Assembly (NCBI GenBank): GCA_035656635.1
Contig: DASRSD010000104.1
Location: forward strand, 1 to 45,397
DNA: 45,397 nucleotides
Direction: 5' to 3'
DNA from: Pirellulales bacterium
GTDB lineage: Bacteria; Planctomycetota; Planctomycetia; Pirellulales; JADZDJ01
Positions 16,080-39,884 of this stretch are shown here, one piece after another; within the stretch, counting starts at the first letter, position 1, and each line of letters starts with the position of its first letter. A program made the position numbers and the translations under genes. Below the pieces are notes generated by a model. It searched no databases. It worked only from the letters and a program-made list of their open reading frames with translations, and was not told where the DNA came from.

Positions 16080-17240
16080 TCATCCGTGACGGTGCCGGCG
16101 TCGATATTCGCTGGGCGTAATGCTAAATCGCTTTTTGAAGGCCACGCTCAGGTATTCGCCATGGTGAAAACCCGCCTGGTCGGCTACGGCGGCCAGCGGC
16201 AGGGCCGTCTCGCTGAGCAGCTTAGTAACGCGCTGAAATTGCATGCGCAGAATTTCATCGTGCGGCGAATATCCAAGCAGCTTTTTGAAGCGATGCTCCA
16301 GCACGCGGCGCGAGAGCGGAACCACCTTCAGAATGTCGTCCACGTTGATTCCTTCGCACGCATGCTCGCGAATAAAGTGCATGGCCTGGGAAATATCGTG
16401 GTCGGGCACCGCGAGAACATCGCTCGATTGCCGCGTGGCAATGCCCAACGGAGCGATTTTTAGCGAATGCGTCCGGGGTGTTTTTCCTGACATTAACTGG
16501 GCCAACATGCGGGCCGCTTCGTAACCGGTGCTGTGGGTGTTGGGAATGACGCTGGAAAGGGGCGGATCTGCCAGATTGCAAAGCATTTCGTCATTGTCCA
16601 CGCTCACCACGGCCATTTCGTCCGGTACGGCCACCCCAATCCGATGGCAAACGTCCAACAACTGCTGGCCGCGCACATCGTAGGCGGCCATGACGCCGAC
16701 CGGCTTGGGAAGCTGACGAATCCAAGCAACCAGCTGTTTTTCCTCCTCCGCCAAATTCATGGGCAACCGTCGATGCGGTTGTGGCCGAAACACGCTGCAC
16801 ACGCCGCCGCCTTGCTTGGTGATCCGCACAAATTCTTCCTGCCTCCACATCGACCAATGGAATTGGTTGTTGCCGACAAAGCCGAAGTTCTTGAAACCCC
16901 GATCCAGCAAATGCTCTGCGGCCAACTTGGCCATTGCAGCATCGTCCGTTTCGACCCACGGAATTTCCGGCATAATGCGCGCGGCGCTTACATCCACCAC
17001 CGGCAAGCCGGTTTTGACCATGGCTTGCGCAATGCGGCGATTTTCAATGCGGGCAATAATTCCGTCCCCCTGCAAATTATCGAGCACCCATTTGGGGGCC
17101 GGGTCGCCGCGGCCTTGTTCGGTTAAAAAGGTTGACCACGGACCGTGCTCTTGAATGTAGGCATAAATGCCACGGACCAATTCCCGCGAATAAGAATTCG
17201 AAGTTTCGATCAGCAAAACCACCCGCGGTCGATGCTTCAT
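16080..17240 (-). CDS. xylR: XylR-type regulator (periplasmic-binding-like sensor + AraC HTH)
   Basis: 386 residues, close to the 392 of E. coli XylR. Residues ~5-265 are a LacI/periplasmic-binding type sugar sensor (RVVLLIETSNSYSRELVRGI at the start; MAVVSVDNDEMLCNLADPPLSSV later). Residues ~283-386 are an AraC-type double helix-turn-helix (HFIREHACEGINVDDIL...AGFHHGEYLSVAFKKRFSITPSEYRRR). By homology it binds xylose and activates xylose/xylan genes. It lies divergently from the GH10 gene at 17772 and upstream of the CE15 gene on the same strand (152 bases), so it is placed to control both. Direct repeats with two-turn spacing lie ~75-100 bp upstream of its start. Confidence 0.85.
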   Translation of the reverse strand: MKHRPRVVLLIETSNSYSRELVRGIYAYIQEHGPWSTFLTEQGRGDPAPKWVLDNLQGDGIIARIENRRIAQAMVKTGLPVVDVSAARIMPEIPWVETDDAAMAKLAAEHLLDRGFKNFGFVGNNQFHWSMWRQEEFVRITKQGGGVCSVFRPQPHRRLPMNLAEEEKQLVAWIRQLPKPVGVMAAYDVRGQQLLDVCHRIGVAVPDEMAVVSVDNDEMLCNLADPPLSSVIPNTHSTGYEAARMLAQLMSGKTPRTHSLKIAPLGIATRQSSDVLAVPDHDISQAMHFIREHACEGINVDDILKVVPLSRRVLEHRFKKLLGYSPHDEILRMQFQRVTKLLSETALPLAAVADQAGFHHGEYLSVAFKKRFSITPSEYRRRHRHG

Positions 17241-17648: not shown

Positions 17649-17677
17649 TTGTGAATTTTCTCACTACATATTACAAT
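17649..17677 (+). promoter_or_regulatory. Sigma-70-type promoter of the GH10 gene
   Basis: -35 TTGTGA (17649-17654) and -10 TACAAT (17672-17677) are separated by exactly 17 bp. Transcription would start near 17684, about 88 nt before the start codon. Confidence 0.55.
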
Positions 17678-17771
17678 GCCGGGGGCCGAGCGACTGCATT
17701 ATCGACTCGGGCCAAAGGGGGCTGCCTTGGGCTTTGAGCCGCAAGGCTGCATTCTAGAGACGGAGGCTTCG

Positions 17772-20060
17772 ATGCGGGGGACTAGGCGCTGCTGCGTTTT
17801 GGTTACTGCGCTATTGTTGCGCCTGGCCGTCCATGCCCAAGGACAAACCTTGGTCAATGGCTCGGCGATGCCTTTTCAGTCGTTCCAATCGTTTGCGGCC
17901 GCCGGGAGCGACAGCGGCAACAATGCCACCCTCACGCAAAACGGCTATCTGGGCACCTACGTGAACTTAGCCCAGCCGGGACCGGTCACGTTCACCGTAA
18001 ATGCTTCCGGCGTGGCATCCAATGGCATCGATCCGGACATGACCATTTCGATTGCCGATTATAGCCATTCGTTCGACGTCAATTCATCGACCATGCACAG
18101 TTACACGTACACCACACCCACACTGCCGGCGGGCCTGTATTTTGTCCGAAGCCAATTAGACAACAGCAGCACTCAAGTGGTGGGCGGCAGCGCCGTTTCG
18201 GTGAAGCCCACGTTGACCGTTGGAAATTTGTCGGTGAGCAGCAACCCGACGGTCAATGCCACGCTCAACAATACTGCCTCCGATGCCAACGCGCTTTCGG
18301 CGGCAAATAATTACATTAACAATTTCCGTCAGGGAACGGCCGCCATTTCAACGGGATTTCACTCCGGAACGTCGGTTCAAGTCAGCATGCTGCGCAACGC
18401 CTTCAATTTTGGCGGAACGGTTTCGGGAGTGACCGTCGGCGATAGCAAAGACATGTTGTATGCCCCAAATTTTGCGGCGGACCCTGAAGAAGGACAATTT
18501 CAAAGCTTCATTAACAGTTACTTCAATACCATTGTTCCTTCCAACGGTGGCAAGTGGGCCAGTAACGTAAGCGGCAGCAATTTATCAAGCTTGACGATGC
18601 AGTTGGTCGACGAGCAACTGGCTTATGCCAAGGCGCACAACATGCAGGCCCGCATGCACAATTTGATTTGGGGCAGCGGAGCAACCTCGGGCTCTCAACA
18701 GCCCTCAACCGTTGATACCCTCTTAGGCACTGCAACGGGGGGCGGCGCCGGCGCCACCAGCGCCAAGCAGTCGCTGACCACCGACATCACCAACCGCATT
18801 GGCTATTACCTTTCAGGCGTTAGTTCCAGTTCGACGGGGAGCGGCAGCTCGCTAAAGACTTACGGAACGGGAGACATTCGGGCGACCGATTTCTCGCAAA
18901 TCGATGTGTTAAACGAAGCTTTGAATAGCCCTTCGTATTGGAACATTTTTCCCAACGGGCAGCCTGCGCCCGGCATCAACACGATTGACACCATCTATCA
19001 TCAAGTGGCGCAAGCGGCGGCAGCAGCCGGAAATCCGAATTTGAAGCTGTTTACGAACGAATTCAACGTGTTGCAATTTTCGCCGCAGTCGATCAGCACT
19101 TCTGGCACAGAGACGGGTTCCGATCCGTACGCCAATTGGTACCGCAACGAAGTGGAGGCCATTAACAATGGCGGCGTGACCGATTTTCAGAGCAAAGTGG
19201 TTAACGAGATTGGCATGGAAATGTATTCCAACGTAACCGGCTCCAACCAGCCCAGCGCGAATACGATGCAAAAAGCGCTGCAAAATCTGTCGGTGGAAGG
19301 TCTTTCACTTTCGATGAACGAATTTGGCATGGGCTCAGGAACCTCATCCACGGATGCCCAAAGCGCGACCAAAGGCGTGAAGGCGTTGAGCGATTCCGTC
19401 ACCATGTTTTATGGAAATCCGCTGGCCGATACATTCATGGTTTGGGGCTGGTGGGATACTGCCGCTTCCATCGCCATGAACGGCGCGCCGCCGGCTCAAT
19501 TCATTGCCACTTCGACCAGCGGCGGCGGTTACACGCTCACGCCGCTGGGGCAGGAATGGGTGAATTTGATGAATGCCTTCACGACACCAACGCAACCGGT
19601 GATTGTGAAGCCCGACGGCACGATTCAATTTAACGGATTTTACGGCGAGTACGCGCTAAAAATTGGTAGCCAAACGTATGCCACCGTCGATTTTGAAAAA
19701 GGCCCAAACGACACGCCCTTGGAAACACTGTGGATTAAAGGCGATTTCAATTTGGATGGCAAACTCACCAACGCCGATTTGCAAGCGATGCTGAACGCGC
19801 TAAAAAATCAAAATAGCTATCAGGCGGCCAACGGGATGTCGAACGAGGAATTCAATGCCATTTGCGACATCAACGGCGATAATGTTTTTAATGCCAGCGA
19901 TATTTCGACCATGATGCAACTACTGACCAGCGGCATCGAGGCCGGCGTGGGCAGCGGCGGCAGCTCCTTGGCGACGGTTCCCGAACCCGCGGGAATTGTT
20001 CTGGTGGCAATTGCGTTAGGGTGCTTGCTGGTGCGCAGCAAGTTAAAACCCGTGCAATAA
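17772..20060 (+). CDS. Divergent GH10 endo-xylanase with N-terminal beta domain, dockerin and PEP-CTERM tail
   Basis: 762 residues from the ATG at 17772, which has GGAGG 5 bases upstream; signal peptide up to VHAQG. Residues ~25-175 are a beta-rich N-terminal domain, also found in the GH10 protein at 33830. The GH10 barrel follows: RMHNLIWG, acid/base E382 in DVLNEALN, nucleophile E517 in LSMNEFG and FMVWGWWD. It departs from classical GH10 at the -1 subsite: the second His of the usual HTLVWH is Gly, and VPSNGGKW replaces TPEN-M-K. A dockerin pair (GDFNLDGKLTNADL, CDINGDNVFNASDI) and a VPEP tail ending in RSKLKP suggest surface anchoring. Likely role: first attack on xylan. Confidence 0.85.
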   Translation: MRGTRRCCVLVTALLLRLAVHAQGQTLVNGSAMPFQSFQSFAAAGSDSGNNATLTQNGYLGTYVNLAQPGPVTFTVNASGVASNGIDPDMTISIADYSHSFDVNSSTMHSYTYTTPTLPAGLYFVRSQLDNSSTQVVGGSAVSVKPTLTVGNLSVSSNPTVNATLNNTASDANALSAANNYINNFRQGTAAISTGFHSGTSVQVSMLRNAFNFGGTVSGVTVGDSKDMLYAPNFAADPEEGQFQSFINSYFNTIVPSNGGKWASNVSGSNLSSLTMQLVDEQLAYAKAHNMQARMHNLIWGSGATSGSQQPSTVDTLLGTATGGGAGATSAKQSLTTDITNRIGYYLSGVSSSSTGSGSSLKTYGTGDIRATDFSQIDVLNEALNSPSYWNIFPNGQPAPGINTIDTIYHQVAQAAAAAGNPNLKLFTNEFNVLQFSPQSISTSGTETGSDPYANWYRNEVEAINNGGVTDFQSKVVNEIGMEMYSNVTGSNQPSANTMQKALQNLSVEGLSLSMNEFGMGSGTSSTDAQSATKGVKALSDSVTMFYGNPLADTFMVWGWWDTAASIAMNGAPPAQFIATSTSGGGYTLTPLGQEWVNLMNAFTTPTQPVIVKPDGTIQFNGFYGEYALKIGSQTYATVDFEKGPNDTPLETLWIKGDFNLDGKLTNADLQAMLNALKNQNSYQAANGMSNEEFNAICDINGDNVFNASDISTMMQLLTSGIEAGVGSGGSSLATVPEPAGIVLVAIALGCLLVRSKLKPVQ

Positions 20061-20104: not shown

Positions 20105-22228
20105 CTAGGAGTGCACAATCGGCCGGCCGCTAAAACCTTGGAAGTATTGCAGAATTTCGTCGCGCCATTTGCCGGCATCCGCCACTTGAATGGTCAAGCG
20201 CGCTGCCACGTGCTTGTAACGGGCCGAGTCGATCTCGGCGGCCAACGTGGACCACGTGGCTTGCAGAGCAGCCGCTTGGGCCGCGCCTTGATAATAATGT
20301 GCACATAATTCTTCCCACAACGTGCGGCCTGATTTGAGTTTGTAATCCCATCCGCAGCGATGAAACCACAGCAGCAGCTTTTCCGGACAAGTTGCCAAAT
20401 TGTCGAACATCTCGCACACCGGCGGAAAATACTGCTCTACTGCTTTATCGCCGGTACTGGTCCGATCGAATCCAATGCCGTCGGCTGAAGCCTGATGATA
20501 ATAAACCCCCGTCCAATCCGGGCGCGCCGCCTGGGTGTTTTGCGGGTGGGGAGCATAATGGTCACCGCCAATTAAGTGATGCAATCCTAACGGCATGGTG
20601 TAATTCACAAATGTCTCGCGCGAACTCATCATCATGCCGCAGATCGTTTTTACGTTGTCGGCGTTGTTTGTGAAGGTCATCCGCACCCATTCTTCAGCGA
20701 TTTGTTGCGCGGAAAGCTGTGGGTCCCAGGCCAACCGCCCGAATGCATACCAGTTTGCCTGACAGAAATGATGCCCACACCAGTTAGCATCCAAGCCCGG
20801 GTTGACCACGCCGGCCATTCCCGTCAATCGGGTAGGTTGCAGCTCTCCGGCAATAACTTTGCCCACGGTTGAACCTGGTCCGTGGGCGAAGGTGTCGGAA
20901 TCGAGAAACTCCTTCCACATGGTTCCTAAGTAAACCAAGTGCTTCGCTTGCCCCAAGTATTCCTGCGTGGGTTGCACTTCAGCAAACGCAGAAGTTTCTT
21001 TGAGTGCGCCGAATAAGGGATGAAATGGCTCACGGGGCTGGAAGTCGAGCGGGCCGTTTTTAATTTGCAGAACGACATTCGGCCGAAATTGGCCATCGAG
21101 CTTGGTGAATTCAATGTAGGCCCGTTTGGTGCGGTCGGGATCAATATCCTCGTCGTACACGAAGGCTCGCCAAATGACATTGCCGCCGTGGGGCGCTAGT
21201 GCATCGGCCAACACGGCGCTGCCTTCGGCATGATTGCGACCGTAATCTTTGGGCCCCGGTTGGCCTTCGGAATTGGCTTTGACCAGAAAGCCGCCGAAAT
21301 CGGGGATCAGCTCGTAAATTTCGTCGGCTTTTGCTTGCCACCATGCGGCGACCGCTTTATCCAACGGATCGGCTGTCGGCAAACCGCCCAAGCGCTTGGG
21401 TGCGGCAAAATTGGCCGACAAATACATTCGTATTCCATACGGCCGCCAGACATCGGCCAGCGCCGCCACTTTGCGTAAATACTCCGCCGTGAGAATGCGA
21501 AAATCGGCATTCACGTTGTTGATGGCCGCCGCATTGATGCCAATCGCCGCATTGGCCCGAGCGTAGTCGGCATAGCGCGGACTGAGCGTGTTGGGTAACT
21601 CGCCCCATAGCCACAACGATCGCCCAGCATAGCCGCGCTCTACACTACCGTTCAAATTATCCCAATGATTCAGCATCCGAATTTGGATTTTCGGCCGCTT
21701 GCTAATATCAAGCCGTTCGATGGGCAGAGCGGTTTGCAACATCCGAAGAAAATGAAATGCGCCATACAGCGCCCCCAACTCGCCGTTTGAAGCGATGCCA
21801 ATCACCGGATGATTGGCGATGGTGGTGGAGCGGATAAGAAATCCTTCCGGTCCGACTTCGTCGAGATCTGCCGTCCAATTCAAGCGATTAATGGCGTCCG
21901 ATGTTTTAGGCGTGCCGACGATAATTGCGCCATCTTCAATAGACTCACTAGCAGGAATCGCCGCGCCCAAAATGCCGGCCAGCCCGGCCGATAGCTCCTC
22001 GCGAATTGCCTTGGCCGTGGCCGATTGGCCTGTGACGAAAATTTGAGTCGCCAGGCGGCGGTACACTTCCGCATTTGATCCGGGGGGCGCATATCGCAGC
22101 CAAAGCTTGTAGCCATCTTCGTCAGGCAGCGCCATTTCCGTTGCCACGCAGCGCGCAGTGCGCCCCACGAGAGCGCCAGCCAAACCTGCCACGCCGGTGG
22201 CAACAAAGGACCGGCGAGAAACCTTCAT
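20105..22228 (-). CDS. aguA: GH67 alpha-glucuronidase, exported (Tat-like signal)
   Basis: 707 residues. The start MKVSRRSFVATGVAGLAGALVG carries a twin-arginine motif, so a folded protein is probably exported to the periplasm or surface; many GH67 enzymes lack any signal. The family landmarks are clear: YKLWLRYAP, QIRMLNHWDNLNGSVERGYAG, the acid E321 in VKANSEGQPGP, D395 in NGPLDFQPRE and a Glu at 423 (PTQEYLG). D395-E423 has the 28-residue spacing known for the general base pair. It removes (4-O-methyl)-glucuronic acid from the non-reducing end of xylo-oligosaccharides. It is divergent from the GH10 gene at 22433; the ribosome site GGGGAG lies 9 bases before the ATG. Confidence 0.93.
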   Translation of the reverse strand: MKVSRRSFVATGVAGLAGALVGRTARCVATEMALPDEDGYKLWLRYAPPGSNAEVYRRLATQIFVTGQSATAKAIREELSAGLAGILGAAIPASESIEDGAIIVGTPKTSDAINRLNWTADLDEVGPEGFLIRSTTIANHPVIGIASNGELGALYGAFHFLRMLQTALPIERLDISKRPKIQIRMLNHWDNLNGSVERGYAGRSLWLWGELPNTLSPRYADYARANAAIGINAAAINNVNADFRILTAEYLRKVAALADVWRPYGIRMYLSANFAAPKRLGGLPTADPLDKAVAAWWQAKADEIYELIPDFGGFLVKANSEGQPGPKDYGRNHAEGSAVLADALAPHGGNVIWRAFVYDEDIDPDRTKRAYIEFTKLDGQFRPNVVLQIKNGPLDFQPREPFHPLFGALKETSAFAEVQPTQEYLGQAKHLVYLGTMWKEFLDSDTFAHGPGSTVGKVIAGELQPTRLTGMAGVVNPGLDANWCGHHFCQANWYAFGRLAWDPQLSAQQIAEEWVRMTFTNNADNVKTICGMMMSSRETFVNYTMPLGLHHLIGGDHYAPHPQNTQAARPDWTGVYYHQASADGIGFDRTSTGDKAVEQYFPPVCEMFDNLATCPEKLLLWFHRCGWDYKLKSGRTLWEELCAHYYQGAAQAAALQATWSTLAAEIDSARYKHVAARLTIQVADAGKWRDEILQYFQGFSGRPIVHS

Positions 22229-22318: not shown

Positions 22319-22397
22319 ATTCTATCCGGCGTCGTTGCTTGACAACCGCGCCGACGGCCAGTTTATTATAATCCAATTGGTATCTGCATACGTACCA
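22319..22397. promoter_or_regulatory. Divergent promoter region of aguA and the GH10 gene with an operator-like palindrome
   Basis: TTGACA (22339-22344, plus) and TTGTCA (22345-22340, minus) overlap almost completely. The minus -10 would be TAGAAT (22324-22319, 15-bp spacer). On the plus strand a perfect TATAAT (22367-22372) is 22 bp away, too far for this -35, while TTTATT (22362-22367) has 17-bp spacing. Next to it, TGGTA-N10-TACCA (22378-22397) is a 20-bp inverted repeat at the expected transcription start, a typical repressor position. Confidence 0.4.
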
Positions 22398-22432
22398 TGG
22401 CTCGAACGAAAGAAACATCCGGGGGAGAAACC

Positions 22433-23569
22433 ATGAGCTGCCGCCGCGGGCTTGTTCTGCGCTTCGTTCTGCTTGTTATTTTGGTGGCGATTACGTCCGT
22501 CGCCGGCGTTCCACTACGCGCTGGCACGCCCACGCTCAAGGATGCGTATCGGAATGATTTTCTGATTGGCGTGGCCTTGGGGGGTACGTTGCCGGATGAT
22601 TATAGCAAAGCAGAATTGGCGGCGATTAAAGCGCACTTTAACGCCGTCACGCCGGAAAATTGCATGAAGCCAGAGGAGATTCATCCGAAAGAAAAAATTT
22701 GGGACTTTGAGCAGCCCGATGCGCTGGTGAAGTTCGCCGAAGAAAATCAGATGCAGATTTTTGGCCACACGTTAGTATGGCACAACCAAACGCCGGGTTG
22801 GTTCTTTTGGGATCACGGCAAACCGGCCTCGCGGGAAATGCTTTTGGAACGGTTGAAGACACACATTGACACCGTCATGGGCCGTTACCGAGGAAAAATT
22901 CGGGGCTGGGATGTGGTGAACGAAGCGATCGCCGAAGGAGGAAAGGATGACCTACGCCAAACCAAGTGGCGGGACGGAATCGGCGACGATTACATCGTTC
23001 GGGCGTATAAATTCGCGCACGAGGCGGACCCCCAGGCCGATTTGCAATACAACGATTACGGCATTGAGTCGCAGCCCAAGTTGGGCAAAGCCCTGCGGCT
23101 CATCAAGAGCTTGCAAGATGCCGGGGTTCCCGTGGCCGCGGTCGGAATTCAAGGGCATTGGCAACTCGACCATGTGCCGTATGACAATCTGGAAAAAGCC
23201 ATCGACGAATTTAGCAAGCTGGGCGTGAAAGTAATGATCACCGAGTTGGATATGGATACCGCGCCGCGACAGGCAGGGGCCGATGTCGCTCACCACGAGG
23301 AAGGAAGTGCTCCCCCCGCCGAAGCAACTCCAGCGGCAGCCGACATTCTACAACGCCAGGCCGAGCAATATGCCAAACTGTTTGCACTGTTTGACAAGCA
23401 CAAAGACGTGATTACTCGCGTCACGTTTTGGGGCCTGGACGACGGCCGCTCTTGGCTGAACTATTGGCCAAAGCCGCGCATCGATCATCCGCTGTTGTTC
23501 GATCGGCAATGCCAACCCAAGCCGGCTCTAAAGGCCATTATTGACGTGGTTGCCAAGCCTACGGAATAG
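22433..23569 (+). CDS. Classical GH10 endo-1,4-beta-xylanase, secreted
   Basis: 378 residues from the ATG at 22433, chosen for its GGGGGAG ribosome site; an in-frame ATG at 22397 lies inside the operator-like palindrome. Signal peptide ~1-30 (LVLRFVLLVILVAITSVAG). All canonical GH10 features are intact: FNAVTPENCMKPE, FGHTLVWHNQTPGWFF, acid/base E164 in WDVVNEAI, nucleophile E271 in MITELDMD, and FWGLDDGRSWLNYWP. It has only the catalytic domain: no dockerin, no PEP-CTERM. A ~20-residue insertion rich in Ala/Pro/Glu (PRQAGADVAHHEEGSAPPAE) follows the nucleophile. It is likely to work on soluble or periplasmic xylo-oligomers, unlike its two surface paralogues. Confidence 0.95.
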   Translation: MSCRRGLVLRFVLLVILVAITSVAGVPLRAGTPTLKDAYRNDFLIGVALGGTLPDDYSKAELAAIKAHFNAVTPENCMKPEEIHPKEKIWDFEQPDALVKFAEENQMQIFGHTLVWHNQTPGWFFWDHGKPASREMLLERLKTHIDTVMGRYRGKIRGWDVVNEAIAEGGKDDLRQTKWRDGIGDDYIVRAYKFAHEADPQADLQYNDYGIESQPKLGKALRLIKSLQDAGVPVAAVGIQGHWQLDHVPYDNLEKAIDEFSKLGVKVMITELDMDTAPRQAGADVAHHEEGSAPPAEATPAAADILQRQAEQYAKLFALFDKHKDVITRVTFWGLDDGRSWLNYWPKPRIDHPLLFDRQCQPKPALKAIIDVVAKPTE

Positions 23570-23597: not shown

Positions 23598-25148
23598 TTA
23601 AGCAGCTGCAAAATTCTTTCGCCGTTCGGCCAATTCATCGGCCATTTGAATGGTCAGCCGCTTGTTGAGTTTATAAGCCAACAACAACAGCGTGCAAACT
23701 CCAAACAAGATTCCCACGATCAGCGTGCCGCAAATGCGAAAGCCTTGCAAGGTTTCCGGCGCCGGATCCAGCTTGGGATTGTAGTTGAAAAGGCCCGCCA
23801 TGATCCACAGGAACGAAGAATTACCCAGCGCCAGGCCACACTTCAGCGCAAAACCAATCGTCGCGAACACAATGCCTGTAAACCGCCGGCCCGTTTTCCA
23901 TTCAGAGTAATCGGCCACGTCGGCGTAAATGGCCCACACCAAGGGGCTCGTCGGAGCATACACGGCGGCGACAAACACGGTTAACAGCGCCATGCTTCCC
24001 ACGTCGCTGGGCTTCAGCGTATAGAAAGCCAATGAACCGACCGATGCCAAGGCAAACCCGACCACAGAGACCGTCTTTTTTCCAAATCGCCGCGAGAGTG
24101 CCGGCGAAAGCAAAATGACCACAATCATCGTGACTTTTTCTAAAATGTTCACGATGCTGTTGAACACGTCGGCCACGTTGGAATCGGCCAGGTTGGCCCG
24201 ATCTCCGTGCACGATGTAACCCAACGTCTCCAAAATTCCGCCCGAAGCCGGGGCGCCGGCCGGCGCCGTTAAACCCAGCCGTTGCAGCCAGTCGTACATG
24301 ACGCCTTTGTCGACGAAATGGTGATAGTAGTTGTACATGGCGTTGCCGCGGAAGGAGAGAATGCAAAAATGCACCAGCGTCATCAGGAACATGACGGCCC
24401 ACGGGCTGCTCTTGAGCAGAGCGGAAAAATCTTGCTTGGCAGACGATTTTTGCGTGGGGGGCGGCTGAATGCGCTCCTTCGTCGTAAAAAACGTAATCAT
24501 AAACAGAACCAAGCACACGACGGCCCAAATGGCCATCGTCATCTGCCAACCGTATTGCTTATCGGCCAGGCCGACGGCGGTCAAACCATTTTGTGCGGCA
24601 TGACCGGCGGCGAACTTAGCCACCAATGGCAGTGTGAAGCCGCCGACAATCAATTGCGCAATGTTCACCGACACAAAGCGAAACGAATTCAACTTGGCGC
24701 GTTCGTTCACGTCGCCCGTCATCACGCCCCCCAAGGCGCTGTAAGGCATATTGTTCATCGAATAAATGGTCATCATCAAAATGTTGGTGAAGGCCGCGTA
24801 GGCAATCATGGAGCCCAAGCTCCAGCGGTTCGGCGTGGTATAGGCCAGGACCATCACCACGCACCAGGGAAGGGCGGTGAACAAAATCCAGGGACGGAAT
24901 TTTCCCCAGCGCGTGTTCGTGCGGTCGGTAAGCACGCCAACAATGGGATCAAAAAACGCATCCCACAGTCGAGAAACAATCAAAATGTTAGCGGCAACAA
25001 CAGCAGTCAGCCCAAACACGTCCGTGTAGAAATTGCCTTGAAACAAAATCATCGTCATGAAGACGAAATTGGCGGCGGCATCGGCGGCACTGTAGCCTGC
25101 TTTTTCGACAAACGAAAGCTTCTCAGAAGCAGGACGGACTTCCGCCAT
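23598..25148 (-). CDS. GPH-family sugar:cation symporter (MFS), probably for xylo-oligosaccharides
   Basis: 516 residues from the ATG at 25148 (MAEVRPASEKL), with GAGG 6 bases upstream. Twelve hydrophobic segments and the glycoside-pentoside-hexuronide signature (SRLWDAFFDPIVGVLTDRTN followed by TRWGKFRPW) place it in the GPH symporter family with XynB/YicJ/MelB-type transporters. A long loop around the middle (~285-330, MYDWLQRLGLTAPAGAPASG) is unusual. It ends 28 bases from the convergent xylanase stop and lies downstream of GH3 on the same strand (51 bases), so GH3 and this gene probably form an operon. Uptake of xylobiose or aldouronates is inferred from context. Confidence 0.88.
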   Translation of the reverse strand: MAEVRPASEKLSFVEKAGYSAADAAANFVFMTMILFQGNFYTDVFGLTAVVAANILIVSRLWDAFFDPIVGVLTDRTNTRWGKFRPWILFTALPWCVVMVLAYTTPNRWSLGSMIAYAAFTNILMMTIYSMNNMPYSALGGVMTGDVNERAKLNSFRFVSVNIAQLIVGGFTLPLVAKFAAGHAAQNGLTAVGLADKQYGWQMTMAIWAVVCLVLFMITFFTTKERIQPPPTQKSSAKQDFSALLKSSPWAVMFLMTLVHFCILSFRGNAMYNYYHHFVDKGVMYDWLQRLGLTAPAGAPASGGILETLGYIVHGDRANLADSNVADVFNSIVNILEKVTMIVVILLSPALSRRFGKKTVSVVGFALASVGSLAFYTLKPSDVGSMALLTVFVAAVYAPTSPLVWAIYADVADYSEWKTGRRFTGIVFATIGFALKCGLALGNSSFLWIMAGLFNYNPKLDPAPETLQGFRICGTLIVGILFGVCTLLLLAYKLNKRLTIQMADELAERRKNFAAA

Positions 25149-25199
25149 GAAAGACCTCAAAAATTCCGATGGAATTGATTGTCCAGCGTTGCCTGCCGG

Positions 25200-27563
25200 T
25201 TACTGCACCACCGCAAGAACTACCTTTTGCAAATCTGCATCCCGCGAAGAATTGCCCACCATAATTTCAAACTCGCCCGGTTCGACCACGTATTTCATGC
25301 CCACATCGTAAAACGCCAGCCGGTCGGGCGTGATGTCCAGCGCCACGGTTTTGGTCTCACCAGGTTCGAGCGATACGCGTTGAAAACCCTTCAATTCTTT
25401 GATGGACCTCGTAACCGAGCTGACCAAATCGCGAATGTACATTTGCACAACCTCATCACCACGCACCCGGCCGGTGTTCGTCACATTTACCAGCACCCGG
25501 GTACGCCCGCTGCGGCGAATTTTTCTCTTTTCCAGCCGCGGCGGACTGAATGTAAAGCTTGTGTAGCTTAGCCCGAAGCCAAATGGATACAACGGCGAGA
25601 CGTCGTCGAACAAATAGCCGCGGCGTGCCGACGGCTTGTAGTTGTAATAAGCCGGCAAGTGACCGGCGGAGCGCGGAATGGTGATCGGCAGCTTTCCGCC
25701 CGGGTTGTAATCGCCAAATAATACATCGGCCACGGCGTGACCGGTTTCTTGTCCCAAATACCAGCACTCAAAAATTACGGGTGCGTGCTGGCTAAGCGAA
25801 TTGATCGACAGCGGCCGGCCGTTGAACAAAAACACGATTACCGGCTTGCCCGTGGCTAACATGGCGTCGGCCAATTCCTGCTGGCGTCCGATTAAATCGA
25901 GACTGGTGCGATCCCCCATGTGCTTCAGATTCCAAGCTTCGCGCGAGGTTAATTCATTGCCGCCGAGGCACAACACGATGACGTCGGCTTGCTTGGCCAC
26001 TTCCACCGCTTCGGCAATTTGTCGACGATCTTCGGCCGGATCGCTGGGGAATACTTCGTCTTGTCCCCAGACACCCGGCTGCGTGATTTTGCAGCCATCG
26101 CTATAGAGTACATGCACGCGGTCACCCACCTTGGCTTTGATGCCGTCGAGCACCGAAACATTGTGCTTAGGCACGCCGCTATAGCCCCCATGTAAGCAGC
26201 GGCCGGCATTCGGGCCAATGACCGCGATGGTTTTCATGTTAGCGGCCCTGAGCGGCACGATGCTACCGTCGTTTTTTAGCAGCGTAATGGTTTCCCGGGC
26301 TGCCTCTAGCGCCAGCTTTCGATGTTCGTCGCAACCCACCACGCGCTCCGCCTCGTCGGGATCAACGTATGGGTCGTCGAACAAACCGAGTTTGAATTTC
26401 CACAACAACATTGGCGCCACCAGCTCATCGAGCTGCGATTCCTTCAGTACTCCCTTTTTGACCAATTCGGCTAAATGCAAATAACAATCGGGTTCCGGCA
26501 GCTCGATATTGACGCCGGCTTTCACCGCTAGCGCGCAGGCTTCTTTTTTGTCGGCGGCCACAAAATGGCCATGCGTTTCAGGGCGATGGTGCAATTCCCA
26601 AATCGAATAATAATCGGAGACCACAAACCCTTGGAAACCCCATTCCTTTCGCAAAACATCGCGCAACAGCCACCGGTTGGCATGCGAGGGAATGCCGTCG
26701 ATTTCGTTGTAGCTGGCCATCACGCTGATGGCGCCGGCTTCTTGCACACAGGCTTTGAAAGTCGATAGGAATGTTTCCCGCAGCACCCGTTCCGAAATGT
26801 TGACTGGCGCACAGTTCATGCCCGATTCCGGCTGGCCGTGTGCTGCGAAATGCTTCAACGTGGCGATAACATTTTTCTGGCCCTTAAAGGAGCGGTTGCC
26901 TTGAAAGCCGCGTACGGCCGCCATGCCCATTTGGGCTACCAAATACGGATCTTCGCCGTAGGTTTCCTCCACGCGGCCCCAGCGTGGATCGCGAGCTACG
27001 TCGACGACCGGAGTCAAGGCCTGATGCGTGCCGCGCACCCGGGCTTCATGCGCCGTCATGGCGAATAGCTTCTGTGCTAATTCAGGATTGAACGTGGCGC
27101 CTAAGCCAATCGGCTGGCAGAAGCTCGTGGAATCGACAGCGGCATGGCCGTGCAGGCATTCTTCGTGATAGATCACGGGGATGCCTAAGCGCGAATGCTC
27201 AAGAAAGAACTTTTGAATGGCGTTGGTAAGCTCCGCGGTGCGGCGGGCATTCAAGCCGCCGGCGGCGTCGCTGGGCCGGCCCACTTGCCCTAAGCCGTGT
27301 CCTTTGCGAAAGCTGGCCGCGGCTTTCTGCGGATTGAAATTCCCTTGGTCATCCACCAGCTTGGCAGCTTTTTCCTGCCACACGCACATCATTTGTGCCG
27401 CTTTTTCGTCCAGCGTCATTCGTGCGAGCAAATCCTTCACGCGCTTTTCGGCGGACAGCTTGCTATTTTTGTAGGCAGGTAGTTTCCCGTTTTGCGTTCC
27501 GCGCGCAAATTTTTTAGTTCGTTCGACAGCACGGCGTTTACGAGGCAACGTGGAAGTACTCAT
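25200..27563 (-). CDS. GH3 beta-xylosidase/beta-glucosidase, cytoplasmic
   Basis: 787 residues with the complete three-part GH3 layout. The barrel holds PVVDVARDPRWGRVEETYGEDPYL and KHFAAHG (237-243); the nucleophile D317 is in GFVVSDYYS; an alpha/beta sandwich (IAVIGPNAGRCLHGGYSG) and a C-terminal Fn3-like domain (YPFGFGLSYTSF) follow. The N-terminus is Lys/Arg-rich without a signal peptide, so the enzyme acts inside the cell. With the GPH symporter gene immediately downstream it probably cleaves imported xylo-oligosaccharides to xylose; beta-glucosidase activity cannot be excluded from sequence alone. Confidence 0.9.
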   Translation of the reverse strand: MSTSTLPRKRRAVERTKKFARGTQNGKLPAYKNSKLSAEKRVKDLLARMTLDEKAAQMMCVWQEKAAKLVDDQGNFNPQKAAASFRKGHGLGQVGRPSDAAGGLNARRTAELTNAIQKFFLEHSRLGIPVIYHEECLHGHAAVDSTSFCQPIGLGATFNPELAQKLFAMTAHEARVRGTHQALTPVVDVARDPRWGRVEETYGEDPYLVAQMGMAAVRGFQGNRSFKGQKNVIATLKHFAAHGQPESGMNCAPVNISERVLRETFLSTFKACVQEAGAISVMASYNEIDGIPSHANRWLLRDVLRKEWGFQGFVVSDYYSIWELHHRPETHGHFVAADKKEACALAVKAGVNIELPEPDCYLHLAELVKKGVLKESQLDELVAPMLLWKFKLGLFDDPYVDPDEAERVVGCDEHRKLALEAARETITLLKNDGSIVPLRAANMKTIAVIGPNAGRCLHGGYSGVPKHNVSVLDGIKAKVGDRVHVLYSDGCKITQPGVWGQDEVFPSDPAEDRRQIAEAVEVAKQADVIVLCLGGNELTSREAWNLKHMGDRTSLDLIGRQQELADAMLATGKPVIVFLFNGRPLSINSLSQHAPVIFECWYLGQETGHAVADVLFGDYNPGGKLPITIPRSAGHLPAYYNYKPSARRGYLFDDVSPLYPFGFGLSYTSFTFSPPRLEKRKIRRSGRTRVLVNVTNTGRVRGDEVVQMYIRDLVSSVTRSIKELKGFQRVSLEPGETKTVALDITPDRLAFYDVGMKYVVEPGEFEIMVGNSSRDADLQKVVLAVVQ

Positions 27564-33501: not shown

Positions 33502-33512
33502 CCAGAAGTTCT
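33502..33512. promoter_or_regulatory. 11-bp palindrome just upstream of the ribosome site
   Basis: CAGAAGTTCTG is symmetrical around one base and lies about 17 bases before the start codon of the dockerin gene, in its leader. Confidence 0.25.
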
Positions 33513-33632
33513 GTTTGTACGAGGCGCAATGCGATGGGGCGGCCGCGCCGACCTACAGCAGATTTAGAACACCCCCATAAACCGGTGCGATTCCCCCCAG
33601 CATACTTCGAGCGAACCGCAAGACTTGTAGCA

Positions 33633-33695: not shown

Positions 33696-33829
33696 GAACT
33701 TTTTATGGAGGAACCGCGAGTCCCCCTATATATACTGGCTGAGACGGGCCTGCCTTGATGGCCTCACGGCCACGACCATGGCTTGGGGCGTCAAGAAAAT
33801 GTGGGATGCGGCAACGAACTACTTGCCGC

Positions 33830-35962
33830 TTAAATCCGCGCCGACCGCCTGTTGCGTTGTGTTTTGTGGCGACGGTTCAGGCCGATCAGTGCCAAACCGC
33901 CCAAGCCCAATAGCGCTAGGCCCGTCGGTTCAGGAACGGCGACGGAGCTTCCGCCGCCGGATAACAACAGATTAAGCAGTGCTTGTATGTCGATGTTGTT
34001 TACTTGGCCATCATGATTGATGTCGCCAATGGAGGTCACATAGCTCGAGCCGTTTGTCGCTTCAAAACTCGCCAAATTTACGAGGGCACTCAGCATGGCG
34101 GGGATATCAGCACTGGTTAAATGACCATCCCCGTTAAAATCCCCCAACACAACTGGCACGCTGATCGAATAGCTATTTGTCGAGGGATTAAAATTGAAAG
34201 TGTAGGTTTTGCCATTAATGAGGGCTTGATAGTCACCATAGAACGCTGAGTCCGGCAACGTCACGCTTCCATCGGCATTGATCGTGCCTGTCATGTTGGT
34301 GATCCAGGAGTTGTGCAAAGCTTCGTAGGCTGTCCCGGCGGCCGTAATTTGGAAACTGGAGTTATACAAAACGGAACCCTGCGCGCCCGAAAATTGATTC
34401 GTGTAAGCCAATAAGCCCCACAGCGTGAAACCAGTCATTTGAGGCGTACCAAAGGCCAGCGTCATCGCGGTCGTCAGCGATGTGGCCTCAACGGATGCAG
34501 TGCCGGTGGTTTCGCCAAATTCGGTGACTTCCAGCGGAAGCCCTTGAGCAGCCAAGTTTTGCCAGGTTGCATAGGCGCGCGCCGGATCTACTTCGCTGCC
34601 ATTCGTGCCGACGCCCGGCGTGTTATACCATTCGGTGCCAATCCCGGTGACCGCGCCCGAGTTAGGGGTACCGCCGCCGCTGCCGTTGCTGATGCCATTG
34701 CGAATCGATTCAATGTGCTGCTGGTACCATTGTCCGAATTGGTCGGAATTGTTATTCAGAACATTGTATTCGTTGGTGAAGAGCTTGGTCGTGGCGCCGG
34801 CGTTGGTGACCGCGGTTTGTACCTGGTTATACAGACCAGCCGTCCAGCCGGCGCCACCGTTGGGGTTGGTAGCGCCCATTGTGGTCCAATAGTCGTCATT
34901 ATTGGCGCTATTGCTGTTGGCCGCCCCCGTGTGATAACTCTCGTTGTAGACATCCAGTTCGGAGTACTCAGTTGCTCGCGGCTTGCCGGTGATGCTATCG
35001 GTGCCTCCCACGTAACTGGCAATACGATTGTTGAGCCTAGTAGTAATGGCGCTGGTATTGTTACCGGAGAAATCCGAATTAATGTCCGTGGGTTGCTGCG
35101 ATCCCCAAACCACATTGTGCATGCGCACGCGCATGCCGTAATGTGAAGCATAATTCAGCAATCGATCAACACTCTGAAGTTGCCCCGCTGTGTCGCTTTC
35201 GCTCCATTTGCCGGCATTTTCTGGCGTAACACTATTAAAATCCTGATTGAGAATATTCGTATACTTCGTTTGTGTAGAAGTGTACGTTTGCGTGTTCCCA
35301 GGCGATAGCGGAATGTATGTGCTGATGCCGTCTAGCACTGCCGTCCCCCACTTGAAAGCCGAGTTCGTTTCTTGGAGCGTGATCGGCGTGCCAGCTTTGA
35401 CCCCCTGCACGGTCAAGTTCATTGGAGCTTCGCGAAAATTACTGATGTAGGTGTTCGCCGCGTTCGTTGCGTCGGTAGCGGCAGCGGTGCTGCTGATATT
35501 GTCATTGGCGAACGTAGCAGTTCCTCCGCTGACGGTATTCACTTTGAGGTTATTGACCGCAAATGATTTGTTGACCCCATTATCGTAATCGCGCTGGACT
35601 TGGACGAAGTAGGTGCCGGGAGTGTTATTAGGACCACCGGGCAAAAAGACATTCTGCGTGTCGTAGTCCGTCGCTGAACTGCCACTGATGTTGAAGCCGA
35701 ATGTCGAATTGGCGATAACCAAATTCATGTGTGCGGTCGAGCCTGTGCCGGTGGCATTCACATCGAAATTGATCGTGGCGCCGCCGGGGGGCACGACGAG
35801 ATAAGTACCGATATATCCGGTTTGACTCAAAGTGGTACTCTGCGTTCCCAACGACTTATAAGCAAGATTACCGGCGGTGAGAGACGTCTGTGACCACGCG
35901 GACGTTGCGGCCCCGATCAGTGTCGCGCTGCATATGATCAAGCAAGGCCAAGACTGGCGCAT
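33830..35962 (-). CDS. Divergent GH10 endo-xylanase with dockerin and PEP-CTERM tail (second copy)
   Basis: 710 residues. Signal peptide ~1-25 and a ribosome site AGAGG 5 bases before the ATG. A beta-rich N-terminal domain (~26-150, with TLSQTGYIGTYLVVPPG) resembles that of the 17772 protein (TLTQNGYLGTYVNLAQPG). The GH10 barrel shows FNSVTPENAGKWSE, MRVRMHNVVWGSQQP, acid/base E341 in LDVYNESYHTG and nucleophile E481 in LEVTEFG, with GFTLWG after it. As in the first copy the second His of HTLVWH is Gly. Dockerin loops GDFNGDGHLTSADI and GDINHDGQVNNIDI (~606-668) precede VPEPTGLALLGLGGLALIGLNRRHK. Confidence 0.88.
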   Translation of the reverse strand: MRQSWPCLIICSATLIGAATSAWSQTSLTAGNLAYKSLGTQSTTLSQTGYIGTYLVVPPGGATINFDVNATGTGSTAHMNLVIANSTFGFNISGSSATDYDTQNVFLPGGPNNTPGTYFVQVQRDYDNGVNKSFAVNNLKVNTVSGGTATFANDNISSTAAATDATNAANTYISNFREAPMNLTVQGVKAGTPITLQETNSAFKWGTAVLDGISTYIPLSPGNTQTYTSTQTKYTNILNQDFNSVTPENAGKWSESDTAGQLQSVDRLLNYASHYGMRVRMHNVVWGSQQPTDINSDFSGNNTSAITTRLNNRIASYVGGTDSITGKPRATEYSELDVYNESYHTGAANSNSANNDDYWTTMGATNPNGGAGWTAGLYNQVQTAVTNAGATTKLFTNEYNVLNNNSDQFGQWYQQHIESIRNGISNGSGGGTPNSGAVTGIGTEWYNTPGVGTNGSEVDPARAYATWQNLAAQGLPLEVTEFGETTGTASVEATSLTTAMTLAFGTPQMTGFTLWGLLAYTNQFSGAQGSVLYNSSFQITAAGTAYEALHNSWITNMTGTINADGSVTLPDSAFYGDYQALINGKTYTFNFNPSTNSYSISVPVVLGDFNGDGHLTSADIPAMLSALVNLASFEATNGSSYVTSIGDINHDGQVNNIDIQALLNLLLSGGGSSVAVPEPTGLALLGLGGLALIGLNRRHKTQRNRRSARI

Positions 35963-36389: not shown

Positions 36390-39300
36390 TTATTTTCCCG
36401 CAGCGCTGGGATCGCCGGTCGGTGGTGGCGCGTGATCTTCCTTTGCCGGCGAACCAAGAACCTCGGTAAAGATGGGCTTAAGGCCATCGGCCCAAACTTG
36501 ATAGCCCTTAACGGTGAGATGCAACTTGTCGCTCGTCATGCCGTCGAATAATTTGCCGTCTTGATCCGCCAACTTGTCGTTCACGTTCAAATAGCGCACC
36601 CTTTTGCCATCGGCAAATTTGGCAATTTGCTCGTTCACACGATTAATGGTTGGTACAACTGCAATGTTATCGTTCCTGGGAAAAATGGCGGTCAAGATGA
36701 TCGTCGCGCCGGGAGCTTTCTGTTGGCAGAGATCTAAAATAGCTTTGATTCCCCTGGCCATGTCGGTAACTTTAGTTTCATCACCGGGTTTAATGCCAAT
36801 GTTGTTTGTGCCCGCCAGGACGACAATTATTTTTGGATTTACGCCATCCAGCTCACCGTTTTTCAGACGCCACAAAATATTTTGAGTAGTGTCGCCGCCC
36901 CAACCAAAGTTCGCGGCATTCCAGCCAAAGAAGTTTTGGTTCCAGTTGGCCAAGTTGGCTTGGTACTGTTGATCGCTGGTGCTCCAGCGCCGTGTAATGG
37001 AGTCGCCGACAAAATAAATGTCGATGTCACCTTGCTTGGCTTTCTCTAGCAAGAGTGCATGCGCAATTTGAGAGTTTTTGTCTGTTCGAGGGACCGGCAG
37101 ATCGGCAGCATTGGCATCGGCAACCTGCGAACTAGATGAAATAGTTGTTGCAGAGTCATCAACTCGCACCGCTGAGGTATCGACTGACGGCGCTTGTATG
37201 TACTTCCCCACCCACTCAAAGAACGCCGGCCAGTTCGGGGTAACATCGTGCCCCCCTTCGTGCTGCCGCCACGCCAATTCGCCACCAATGAGCGTTTTGA
37301 CCGGAGGCATTTCATCGGTTAAGTAATCTCCCGGCGTGCCGAAATCTTTTTTGCCCAGCATCCGATAGACCGGTCCTGCCAACACCCCGGCCATGAAGCT
37401 GCCGTGGGCATCCACCCATTTTGGATCGCCATGCTCAACCGAACCGTAGCTGATGAAGCAGGGGCGCGGCGCGCATAAAGCAATTAGTTCATGCGCATCG
37501 ACCGGCAAATCGGCCGCGGTTTTCGATCCAAAGGTTGCGTCACTGGCTCCGTACTTCAAGAAATTGCCAGCCATCCAGTAGTACTCGCCACCGGTGAGAT
37601 TCTCGACTGCTTCGCCGAAAAGATGGCGATGCAATTTCGCGCCTCCTTCACCAGAAGATGCGATCAGCCCAACCGCTACTCGCTCGTCGAAAGCTTCCGT
37701 AACGAGCGCCGCTTTGCCGTAGCGTGACACTCCTTCGATGCCCACTTTTTTCGGATCGACTTTCGCATCGGAGTTGGCCTCGAAGTAATCGATGAGCCGG
37801 CTCACTCCCCATTGCCATGCCCGCAGCGCGCCCCAGTCGTCCGGTTTGCGCGGCTCGCCCTTGTTGGTCAAACCGATGATGCCCGAACGCAACTGGTTAT
37901 TGTCGGGCTGAATGCTTCCTGGATTGATATACCCGTAGCCCCAACCATGGGCGATGGCTTGCTGTGTCCACGGCACTGCAATCGGGGTGCCGCCAGGGCG
38001 AGGACCGAATCCACCGCGACCAAACGCGCCGCCGAACACAATCATGATTGGAACCGGCGTCGATGTATTCGCTGGCACTGTAAAGCTGGCCTGAATATTC
38101 ACCGTGATATTCGGATCAACGCGGTTATCGACATGCCCGACAAGCGTTTTGGTGATTGTGGGTATACCGCCACTGTCACTTTCGGTAGTAGCTGTGACCT
38201 CCCATTTCACCGCCGGAACGTTTTTCGGAATCCACCCGTACACTTCCCGTTCGAAGTCTTCCAGAATCTCGGCACGCCGTTGGGGCCACTGCTCGGGACG
38301 AGTAACCTTGCTTCCATTTTTTATGGTCAGTACGTCGGGCAGGCTGTCCTTATATGGATTCGCTTTCGCTTCATCGTAAATGCTTTGGTCGTTGCCATCC
38401 GCTCCGCGACGCAGCCGCTTGATGCCCAATTGATCCATCATGTTTTGATGATCGTCATAACGAGATTGCGGTTCGATATGGCCCACTTCTCCGACGGGCT
38501 CAGCAACGGCGTTTGGTTTCACGTCTTCGCCGCGAACCAACGCATTCAGCCATTCGGCCGAACGCTGTGTATACGGCCGTTGCTGTGCTGGTGTGGCCAA
38601 GTTGTTGTGTGGCGAATCGATCATCGGCACTGCTTCCTTCGGTCCGGCAATTTGGTTGAACGCCGTCCAAATGCCGGCGGGCGGCGCCGTCGTATCCACG
38701 AACCCCATCGCCACTAGACACTTGCCCTTAATGCGCGGCGCGAAATTTACAGCGTCAAAGTACAGCGCCGTTTCCATAATTTTCGAGTTGCGTGACGGAA
38801 AATTCGGATAACCCGATTGCCGACCGTGCAGTGGACCATTGGTGTCGCAGCCGGCCGGCTCATCGACAATTAAATGTGTGATTTGCGGGTGCAGTCCTGC
38901 TACACACAAGCTTTGCTGGCCACCCATGCTGGTCCCCATGACCACCAGGGTTTTTCCATCCCAATCGGGCCGGCCGGCGATATAATCCACGGCGCGATAA
39001 TCAGCCAAATACATCTGCAAAAAATAACTTTTGTCGCGGTCATCGTTGCCGATGGTTTGGTAGTTTTTAATCGCTGACGGCAACGCGTCGTAGTACGATT
39101 GCGGCTGATCGGGCAGTACGTCGTGCGGCTCAATATTCAACGTAAGCCATCCGCTGGCCGCATGATTGGTAACCCACGACTTTTGCAAGGGATAGGGCGG
39201 ACTGGCCCATTGAAAAATCACCAGAGCCGGAAATTTTCCTTCTCGTTTCGGCTTGGCCAGTTGACCATAGACATGCGCACCGTTGATATGATCCATTTTG

Positions 39301-39884
39301 ATAGTGGCGTATTCGACATCAGGCTTGCCGCTGTCGCCTGGCGTAAGCTCCGTGTTCTCCGGAATTTCCCTTAGGGTTTTGATCTTTGTGTTCCAAAACT
39401 CATCAAAATCTGCTGGGCGCTCGACCGACGGTCGCAATTGAGTGGGCGCGACCGCCGCGCCAGCCGCGATTACAGCACGGCGACGTCGATCACTCGGCGA
39501 TTTATCCTCAGTTTCCTTGTTGGAATCTGTAGCCGCGCTCTCAGTCGATGCCTCAGGCGTGAGTTGTAAATACAGCATTGCCGGTTCATTAGTAGAAATC
39601 TCGATGTCAGTTTTGCCGGACGATAGATCGAGCTCGCCGCTTTTAATGACATCGAAATTATTCTTTTTGAGCGCGTACGTGTATTTTGCCATCGGCAGTG
39701 TTGTACCTTCCGGGAAAGCGACGGTCCAACCAACTTTTTCCCCGATTTTGTAAATGCCGGTTTTGTTATAGGGAGCAAAAGTTAACTCTTGTGCCGCGCA
39801 CCGCAACGTTGCGAGCTCAAACAAGCCCAGCAACGTAATCGCGAAGATCGGAATCGGCCTTCGATGGGAGACCATCCATCTCAT
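36390..39884 (-). CDS. Tri-modular secreted carbohydrate esterase: CE7-like + CE15 + GDSL/SGNH
   Basis: 1164 residues from the ATG at 39884 (GGGTGG upstream, signal peptide to ~32); the open frame extends to a GTG at 39965 that adds no recognisable signal. Module 0 (~33-110): small beta domain. Module 1 (~150-450): acetyl xylan esterase of CE7/AXE1 type with S319 in GTSMGG, D397 in GFVDTTAPP and H426 in SPHNN. Module 2 (~483-898): CE15 glucuronoyl esterase with S720 in EGVSRYGK, E746 in SSGEGG and H879 in HEGGHD. Module 3 (~940-1145): SGNH hydrolase with S962 in VGDSITRRW, the Gly of FGWGGDT, N1027 in AGTNN and D1119-x2-H1122. All three catalytic sets look complete, so one chain could deacetylate xylan and cut glucuronoyl esters. 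No dockerin or PEP-CTERM is present. Confidence 0.9.
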   Translation of the reverse strand: MRWMVSHRRPIPIFAITLLGLFELATLRCAAQELTFAPYNKTGIYKIGEKVGWTVAFPEGTTLPMAKYTYALKKNNFDVIKSGELDLSSGKTDIEISTNEPAMLYLQLTPEASTESAATDSNKETEDKSPSDRRRRAVIAAGAAVAPTQLRPSVERPADFDEFWNTKIKTLREIPENTELTPGDSGKPDVEYATIKMDHINGAHVYGQLAKPKREGKFPALVIFQWASPPYPLQKSWVTNHAASGWLTLNIEPHDVLPDQPQSYYDALPSAIKNYQTIGNDDRDKSYFLQMYLADYRAVDYIAGRPDWDGKTLVVMGTSMGGQQSLCVAGLHPQITHLIVDEPAGCDTNGPLHGRQSGYPNFPSRNSKIMETALYFDAVNFAPRIKGKCLVAMGFVDTTAPPAGIWTAFNQIAGPKEAVPMIDSPHNNLATPAQQRPYTQRSAEWLNALVRGEDVKPNAVAEPVGEVGHIEPQSRYDDHQNMMDQLGIKRLRRGADGNDQSIYDEAKANPYKDSLPDVLTIKNGSKVTRPEQWPQRRAEILEDFEREVYGWIPKNVPAVKWEVTATTESDSGGIPTITKTLVGHVDNRVDPNITVNIQASFTVPANTSTPVPIMIVFGGAFGRGGFGPRPGGTPIAVPWTQQAIAHGWGYGYINPGSIQPDNNQLRSGIIGLTNKGEPRKPDDWGALRAWQWGVSRLIDYFEANSDAKVDPKKVGIEGVSRYGKAALVTEAFDERVAVGLIASSGEGGAKLHRHLFGEAVENLTGGEYYWMAGNFLKYGASDATFGSKTAADLPVDAHELIALCAPRPCFISYGSVEHGDPKWVDAHGSFMAGVLAGPVYRMLGKKDFGTPGDYLTDEMPPVKTLIGGELAWRQHEGGHDVTPNWPAFFEWVGKYIQAPSVDTSAVRVDDSATTISSSSQVADANAADLPVPRTDKNSQIAHALLLEKAKQGDIDIYFVGDSITRRWSTSDQQYQANLANWNQNFFGWNAANFGWGGDTTQNILWRLKNGELDGVNPKIIVVLAGTNNIGIKPGDETKVTDMARGIKAILDLCQQKAPGATIILTAIFPRNDNIAVVPTINRVNEQIAKFADGKRVRYLNVNDKLADQDGKLFDGMTSDKLHLTVKGYQVWADGLKPIFTEVLGSPAKEDHAPPPTGDPSAAGK

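Follow-up and report, generated by a model that had tools for sequence, protein, structure and literature searches.

Protein chains that carry more than one carbohydrate esterase (CE) domain have already been published. CesA of R. flavefaciens combines a CE3 acetylxylan esterase with a CE15 glucuronoyl esterase, and the authors of the CE15 structure suggest that both sites could act jointly on glucuronoxylan, by deacetylation and by ester cutting (PMC11345330). Fll4 of Flavimarina sp. Hel_I_48, with the domain order CE6-CE1a-CE1b, has been put forward by its authors as the first enzyme to have three CE domains, the third of which was inactive on the substrates tried (PMC12247016). For planctomycetes, a survey of carbohydrate-active enzymes has noted multi-module enzymes and stated that characterised ones are still needed (PMC11131199). 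A contig of a Pirellulales bacterium from this phylum (GenBank assembly GCA_035656635.1, contig DASRSD010000104.1; 45,397 nucleotides, the whole of which is called the window in the following) encodes a protein in which an AXE1-family module, a CE15 module, and an SGNH/GDSL module follow each other on one chain. This is probably a secreted three-module esterase that came about by the joining of two genes and acts on acetylated (methyl)glucuronoxylan tied to lignin. Its architecture combines in a new way parts that are met elsewhere in pairs. In the open PMC literature, searched by title and by the start of the abstract, no description was found of an AXE1-CE15-SGNH protein, of an AXE1-CE15 protein, or of this CE15-SGNH pair.

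The gene lies on the minus strand as a single uninterrupted open frame without internal stops (residue numbers refer to the 1164-residue protein; a longer open frame, of 1191, begins 27 residues earlier). The original prediction had claimed a single polypeptide of this length and had named a frame error joining separate genes as the finding that would speak against it; with the single frame and a clean junction, a frame error or a missed stop is ruled out. Pfam recognizes all three modules far above the cut-offs, with AXE1 at residues 151-431 (E=7.5e-36, 123.9 bits against a cut-off of 21), GCE_fung, the CE15 family PF22244, at 683-844 (E=3.6e-32, 112.5 bits against 27), and Lipase_GDSL_2 at 958-1130 (E=6.9e-29, 102 bits against 32.9), while the whole protein has no match in NCBIfam at E<=0.01. 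Judged by Pfam and by conservation, complete catalytic residues are present in each of the three modules, and the identity to the nearest relative is 70-79% per module, so that a decayed module is ruled out, just as the intactness of the three sites had been taken to speak against a decaying fusion. Conservation was counted in 74 AXE1-module, 151 CE15, and 50 SGNH sequences, the window's own row included. The N-terminus has the features of a Sec signal peptide (residues 1-32), through which the protein is likely exported. It is followed by a domain that is matched in stand-alone AXE1 proteins with 24-56% identity and for which strands are predicted, with modest confidence, at 67-74, 78-86, and 103-108.

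For the CE15 module, the best PDB match is TtCE15A of Teredinibacter turnerae (6hsw, E=9.4e-94), and the predicted model superimposes on this structure, in line with the alpha/beta-hydrolase fold of CE15, with a fold Z of 37.2 and a root-mean-square deviation (rmsd) of 3.2 over 385 aligned residues. S720, R721, K724, and W823 are invariant in 151/151 sequences, corresponding to the Ser-Arg nucleophile and to the Lys and Trp of the glucuronate pocket, whose roles are known from PMC6484129. The catalytic set had been given as S720/E746/H879. All residues named for the three sets are indeed found at these positions, and S720 as well as H879 (His in 149 of the 151 sequences, with 2 gaps) agree with the assigned roles, but E746 does not, and the acid has to be replaced. 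In TtCE15A, the usual acid position is occupied by Ser-304 and the working acid is Glu-374; an E374A exchange lowered kcat 100-fold (PMC6484129), a drop that the same group later put at about 33-fold (PMC6937553). The labels "canonical" and "noncanonical" for the two acid positions are used in opposite ways in these two papers. In the alignment with TtCE15A, for which the author numbers of 6hsw were recovered by a fixed offset from Ser-281, Ser-304 corresponds to S743 and Glu-374 to D820. The catalytic acid is most likely D820, as this residue is aligned with Glu-374 and as an acidic residue is found there in 145/151 sequences (Asp in 115, Glu in 30; the rest are 5 gaps and 1 Ser). E746 is rejected in this role, since it aligns with neither acid position and Glu is present in just 76/151 sequences, and D820 is also to be preferred over E817 (Glu in 90/151). 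The predicted model places D820 in the loop after strand 809-814, where the local confidence is low, with a predicted local distance difference test score (pLDDT) below 50 at 821-823. The module thus looks active, through a different acid than had been claimed.

The AXE1 module has its best PDB match in 3fcy (E=5.2e-22). Its triad S319/D397/H426 is well conserved, with Ser in 74/74, Asp in 72 (Glu in the other 2), and His in 70 sequences (4 gaps). The motifs of the CE7 family are RGQ, GxSxG (or GxSQG), and HE (PMC9606172). The nucleophile motif of the module, GTSMG, fits GxSxG and departs from the stricter GxSQG by a Met in place of the Gln, as in 20/74 sequences. RGQ is absent, and HDV aligns with the RGQ of 1l7a, the His of HDV being kept in 74/74 sequences; HE is absent as well, with H426-N427 in its place. 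As RGQ and HE are both missing, "CE7-like" is the furthest assignment that can be made: by its motifs, the module represents an AXE1-family branch that does not carry the CE7 signature. Of the original prediction of an AXE1-like or CE7-like esterase, the family and the intact triad therefore stand, and a firm CE7 assignment does not. In its genome the module is the sole strong AXE1 match, one other protein scoring 22 bits, and no relatives of the AXE1 part were found in the viral contigs searched. In the AlphaFold model, residues 110-444 have a pLDDT below 50 because the alignment contained no relative of the AXE1 part, and the lack of a fold match to this part among the 50 matches listed says nothing about the module.

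In the SGNH module, the set S962/D1119/H1122 had been placed correctly, and these residues are invariant, together with N1027, in 50/50 sequences; at position 997 the window has Gly, as do 29/50 sequences, with Ala in the other 21. The nearest PDB entry by sequence is platelet-activating factor (PAF) acetylhydrolase Ib (E=3.6e-26), and the predicted fold agrees with this enzyme (1wab) with Z 23.5 and rmsd 2.5 over 204 aligned residues, followed by sialate O-acetylesterases as the next fold neighbours with Z about 18. PAF acetylhydrolases and sialate O-acetylesterases take off acetyl groups, and because the nearest solved relatives do so, acetyl is a first guess for the group that the module may cleave. 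The genomic neighbours of four SGNH relatives with 54-56% identity in the window's class (L162-L165) could point to the substrate of this type of module.

The two halves of the protein occur as separate genes in relatives. The linker at residues 451-475 starts where stand-alone AXE1 proteins stop and stands in the place of the leader of CE15 proteins, and the best explanation, held with fair confidence as a whole, is that the protein is a join of a stand-alone AXE1-type gene and a two-module CE15-SGNH gene. Near-duplicates were taken out before the trees were made, the rows marked "dup" in the AXE1 tree are L184 and L188 (from G761 and G754) and L190 and L192 (from G759 and G760), the CE15 set went from 152 to 151 rows by merging two rows of the same name, and the CE15 tree was made of 58 rows (identity >=56% or fused), or 60 with L320 and L306. 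In the AXE1 tree, a supported set of 18 rows contains the window; 16 of these rows come from searches centred on Armatimonadetes and one (L148) comes from the window's class, and the nearest identity is 70%. In the CE15 tree, it stands beside 14 Armatimonadetes- and Verrucomicrobia-side rows with a support of 87, the nearest identity being 79% to L009. In the SGNH tree, which includes two very long outgroup rows, its neighbours come from several groups and the support is weak (83/53). Two of the AXE1-CE15 fusions, L255/L275 and L256/L276, are placed away from the window in the AXE1 and CE15 trees, and the approximately unbiased (AU) test rejects that their AXE1-CE15 junctions share one origin with that of the window, with p 5.62e-05 for CE15 and 1.65e-05 for AXE1 (L320 was outside this test). 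It follows from this rejection that AXE1 was put in front of CE15 at least twice. The test does not reject a single origin shared by L255, L256, and L320 (p 0.46 and 0.335).

Full-length searches for the same order of modules covered 3, 397, 14, 291, 286, 160, and 161 genomes in overlapping sets and scored the best few candidates per genome, among which a full triple would rank first; the group names used for the genomes of relatives are those of each search's central record, and the numbers given in the following hold among the matches listed. No full AXE1-CE15-SGNH triple was found outside the window's genome, and genes cut by contig ends could conceal more of them. Rarity holds for the full triple only: CE15-SGNH proteins are frequent in several phyla, and AXE1-CE15 proteins occur in three other genomes (L275, L276, and L320, each one frame). 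A genome of the same genus (G001) and one of the same family (G002) gave partial matches only (35-39%), and the window's genome has no separate close copy of either half. CE15 and SGNH form one frame in L009, L010, L012, L013, L014, and L020, three of which reach a contig end, and in L089-L093 of the window's class. By group, the phylum of G761 (Armatimonadetes record; 291 genomes) has nine whole and two cut CE15-SGNH genes, the class of G759 (Verrucomicrobia record) has one in 1/286 genomes at E<=1e-130, and the class of G753 (Bryobacteraceae record) has one in 12/161 genomes. CE15 and SGNH are neighbouring genes in L011, L016, L030, L034, L310, L311, L313, and L315. Both halves of the window's protein occur as separate genes of one genome in G124, G761, G840, G855, and G846, and also in G754, where the CE15-SGNH gene ends at the contig end. 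In L306, an AXE1 gene is divergent from and adjoins a CE15-SGNH gene, in L289 AXE1 and CE15 are adjacent on the same strand, and in L280 and L281 they are about 6 kb apart. In the 291-genome set from G761's phylum, an AXE1 gene (E<=1e-60) is found in 5/11 genomes with CE15-SGNH versus 31/280 others (Fisher p 0.0059; kinship uncorrected, and 2/11 genes cut). A looser count with any CE15 at E<=1e-100 gives AXE1 in 10/22 versus 26/269 genomes (p 5.5e-05) and is not relied on, as two candidates were scored per genome.

Some relatives have further arrangements of the same parts. L091 (613-3744, minus strand) and L093 (616-3753, minus strand) each encode, in a single frame, a CE15 with two different SGNH modules behind it, and in L090 (481-3789) the second SGNH is in another frame (765-1136), as if frameshifted. 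L294 (4074-9464, plus strand) has a frame of 1797 codons with CotH, DUF7133, cytochrome c, and a C-terminal CE15. In L277 (8194-12384, minus strand), a glycoside hydrolase (GH) of family GH115, an alpha-glucuronidase, is fused to CE15 in one frame of 1397 codons, and this fusion links a relative of the window's CE15 to glucuronoxylan.

The surroundings of the gene (Table 1) are convincingly those of a glucuronoxylan locus, and as the window holds three GH10 proteins, two of them with a dockerin, GH67, GH3, a XylR-type regulator, and a second CE15, xylan is supported as the substrate. The neighbouring gene had been taken for a surface xylanase, with which the GH10 protein with dockerin and PEP-CTERM agrees. 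Apart from this neighbour, 14606-27563 is a compact cluster, on both strands, of CE15, XylR-type regulator, GH10, GH67, GH10, MFS_2, and GH3. Proteins with dockerin or PEP-CTERM, including GH10 and BNR_4 proteins, are encoded at 7678-9594, 10120-12222, 17676-20060, and 31042-35962, and DUF1559 proteins are encoded in the window as well; dockerin, PEP-CTERM, and DUF1559 together would point to a planctomycete.

Table 1. Coordinates of the three-module esterase gene, its parts, and the xylan-related genes of the window.
Feature	Position	Strand	Basis
Three-module esterase gene	36390..39884	minus	1164 aa, ATG at 39884, stop 36390-36392
Likely Sec signal peptide, residues 1-32	39789..39884	minus	basic start, hydrophobic core, small end residues
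N-terminal domain without Pfam name, residues 33-149	39438..39788	minus	common to many stand-alone AXE1 relatives
AXE1 / CE7-like esterase module, residues 150-450	38535..39437	minus	Pfam AXE1, PDB 3fcy, conservation
Fusion linker, residues 451-475	38460..38534	minus	comparison with L148, L283, L284, L288 and L009, L149
CE15 glucuronoyl esterase module, residues 476-898	37191..38459	minus	Pfam GCE_fung, 6hsw, fold, conservation
Linker rich in Ser, Ala, Asp, residues 899-935	37080..37190	minus	pLDDT <50 at 907-924
SGNH/GDSL esterase module, residues 936-1164	36393..37079	minus	Pfam Lipase_GDSL_2, PDB, fold
GH10 xylanase with dockerin and PEP-CTERM	33830..35962	minus	Pfam
Second CE15, single-module, 36% identity	14606..16024	minus	sequence match
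XylR-type AraC regulator	16080..17240	minus	PBP1_XylR, Peripla_BP_3, HTH_18
GH10 with dockerin	17676..20060	plus	domain match
GH67 alpha-glucuronidase	20105..22228	minus	domain match
GH10 xylanase	22397..23569	plus	domain match
MFS_2 sugar transporter	23598..25160	minus	domain match
GH3, beta-xylosidase role inferred	25200..27563	minus	domain match

The substrate of the three-module protein, outside the cytoplasm, would be acetylated (methyl)glucuronoxylan that is still bound to lignin. The AXE1 module would deacetylate the backbone of the xylan. The ester that ties (4-O-methyl)glucuronic acid to lignin would be cut by the CE15 module via S720-H879-D820, and the SGNH module may take a further acyl group, most likely acetyl, off the same chain. 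The freed polymer could then be processed by the xylanases of family GH10, the alpha-glucuronidase of GH67, and the GH3 enzyme. Several observations weigh against this explanation. The full triple is found on one contig of a metagenome-assembled genome (MAG) only. No CE15 match lies within about 7 kb of the SGNH relatives L162-L165. A pattern scan of the genome collection, which needs exact peptide matches and gave 188 pattern matches and 180 relatives, 80 of which were kept, revealed no AXE1 near CE15 or CE15-SGNH at the 80 loci when flanks of up to 8 kb were included, and 6 of the 11 CE15-SGNH genomes counted above lack an AXE1 gene at E<=1e-60. The link between the AXE1 and the CE15-SGNH halves is therefore loose. 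The missing RGQ and HE signatures of the AXE1 module and the position of the SGNH module closest to PAF acetylhydrolase Ib and sialate O-acetylesterases, which are not xylan esterases, belong to the same side.

These last two points also favour the alternative that survives best, which is that the modules are present as described, but that SGNH (or AXE1) cuts an ester outside xylan, such as an acetyl of another polymer or an aryl or acyl ester, or mainly aids binding, and that only CE15 is a true glucuronoxylan enzyme. That the third CE domain of Fll4 was inactive on the tested substrates would fit as well (PMC12247016). As the triad residues are invariant or nearly so across the compared sets, as the gene is located among xylan genes, and as AXE1, CE15, and SGNH genes are joined or neighbouring in several other genomes, this alternative is nevertheless unlikely. 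Very unlikely is a role of the CE15 module in cutting pectin uronate esters rather than lignin-glucuronoxylan esters. Some bacterial CE15 enzymes do act on galacturonate esters and have a proposed role in pectin (PMC10807430), and the window has a BNR_4 protein at 7678-9594, but with GH10, GH67, and GH3 in the locus, none of the 27 scanned window proteins in a named pectinase family, the glucuronoyl esterase TtCE15A as the nearest solved relative, and the GH115-CE15 fusion in another relative, glucuronoxylan is by far the better candidate. That two separate genes were joined by an assembly or annotation artefact is hardly credible, since, even though the triple comes from a single genome of 190 contigs and was met in no other genome among the matches listed, the continuous frame lies well within a 45 kb contig, the second leader is cleanly replaced by a linker, the genome has no separate close copy of either half, and the same AXE1-CE15 order is found in L275 and L276, whose contigs measure 5.9 and 6.1 Mb.

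An esterase of the proposed kind would matter because the ester groups of xylan and the ester links between xylan and lignin limit the breakdown of plant matter. That AXE1 and CE15 were joined at least twice and that several phyla have CE15-SGNH proteins points to a benefit of making these cuts jointly in one place. The fusion in L277 would bring a glucuronidase and a glucuronoyl esterase onto one chain. The CE15-SGNH proteins, which were not met in the literature searched, are a direct lead to the role of the SGNH partner. It is a further-reaching, if rather doubtful, idea that the SGNH module represents an unnamed carbohydrate esterase family that is a regular partner of CE15 and removes an acyl group beside the glucuronoyl-lignin ester; the window's protein, with its independently added AXE1, would then be a natural machine that removes the esters of one type of lignin-carbohydrate knot in three steps.

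Compared with the known systems, the protein resembles CesA in having an SGNH-fold esterase and CE15 on one chain, whereas CesA is described with the order CE3 then CE15 and with no AXE1 module (PMC11345330); the window's SGNH is nearest to PAF acetylhydrolase among solved chains. Fll4 has three carbohydrate esterase domains on one chain, as the window's protein probably does, but these are of the families CE6, CE1, and CE1, and the enzyme is described with a feruloyl rather than a glucuronoyl esterase (PMC12247016). In other published fusions, the partner of CE15 is a glycoside hydrolase and not an esterase, as in GH10-CE15 of Caldicellulosiruptor kristjansonii (PMC7151638, PMC8280721), CE15-GH8 of Bacteroides eggerthii (PMC8417218), and OtCE15C, a CE15-GH106 protein (PMC10807430). 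TtCE15A, the closest solved CE15 relative, has an acid in the position of D820 and a Ser at the usual acid position, like the window, and is described with no AXE1 or SGNH partner (PMC6484129). Among the relatives found, the CE15-SGNH proteins of Armatimonadetes (L009 and L020), Bryobacteraceae (L012), Limisphaerales (L010), the window's class (L089-L093), and others share the CE15-SGNH half, with up to 74% identity (L009), but are without the AXE1 half. The AXE1-CE15 proteins L275 and L276 (class of a Verrucomicrobia record) and L320 (class of a Sedimentisphaerales record) have the same order of AXE1 then CE15, and in L275 and L320 even the N-terminal domain is matched, but they have no SGNH module, and L275 and L276 are of independent origin according to the AU test.

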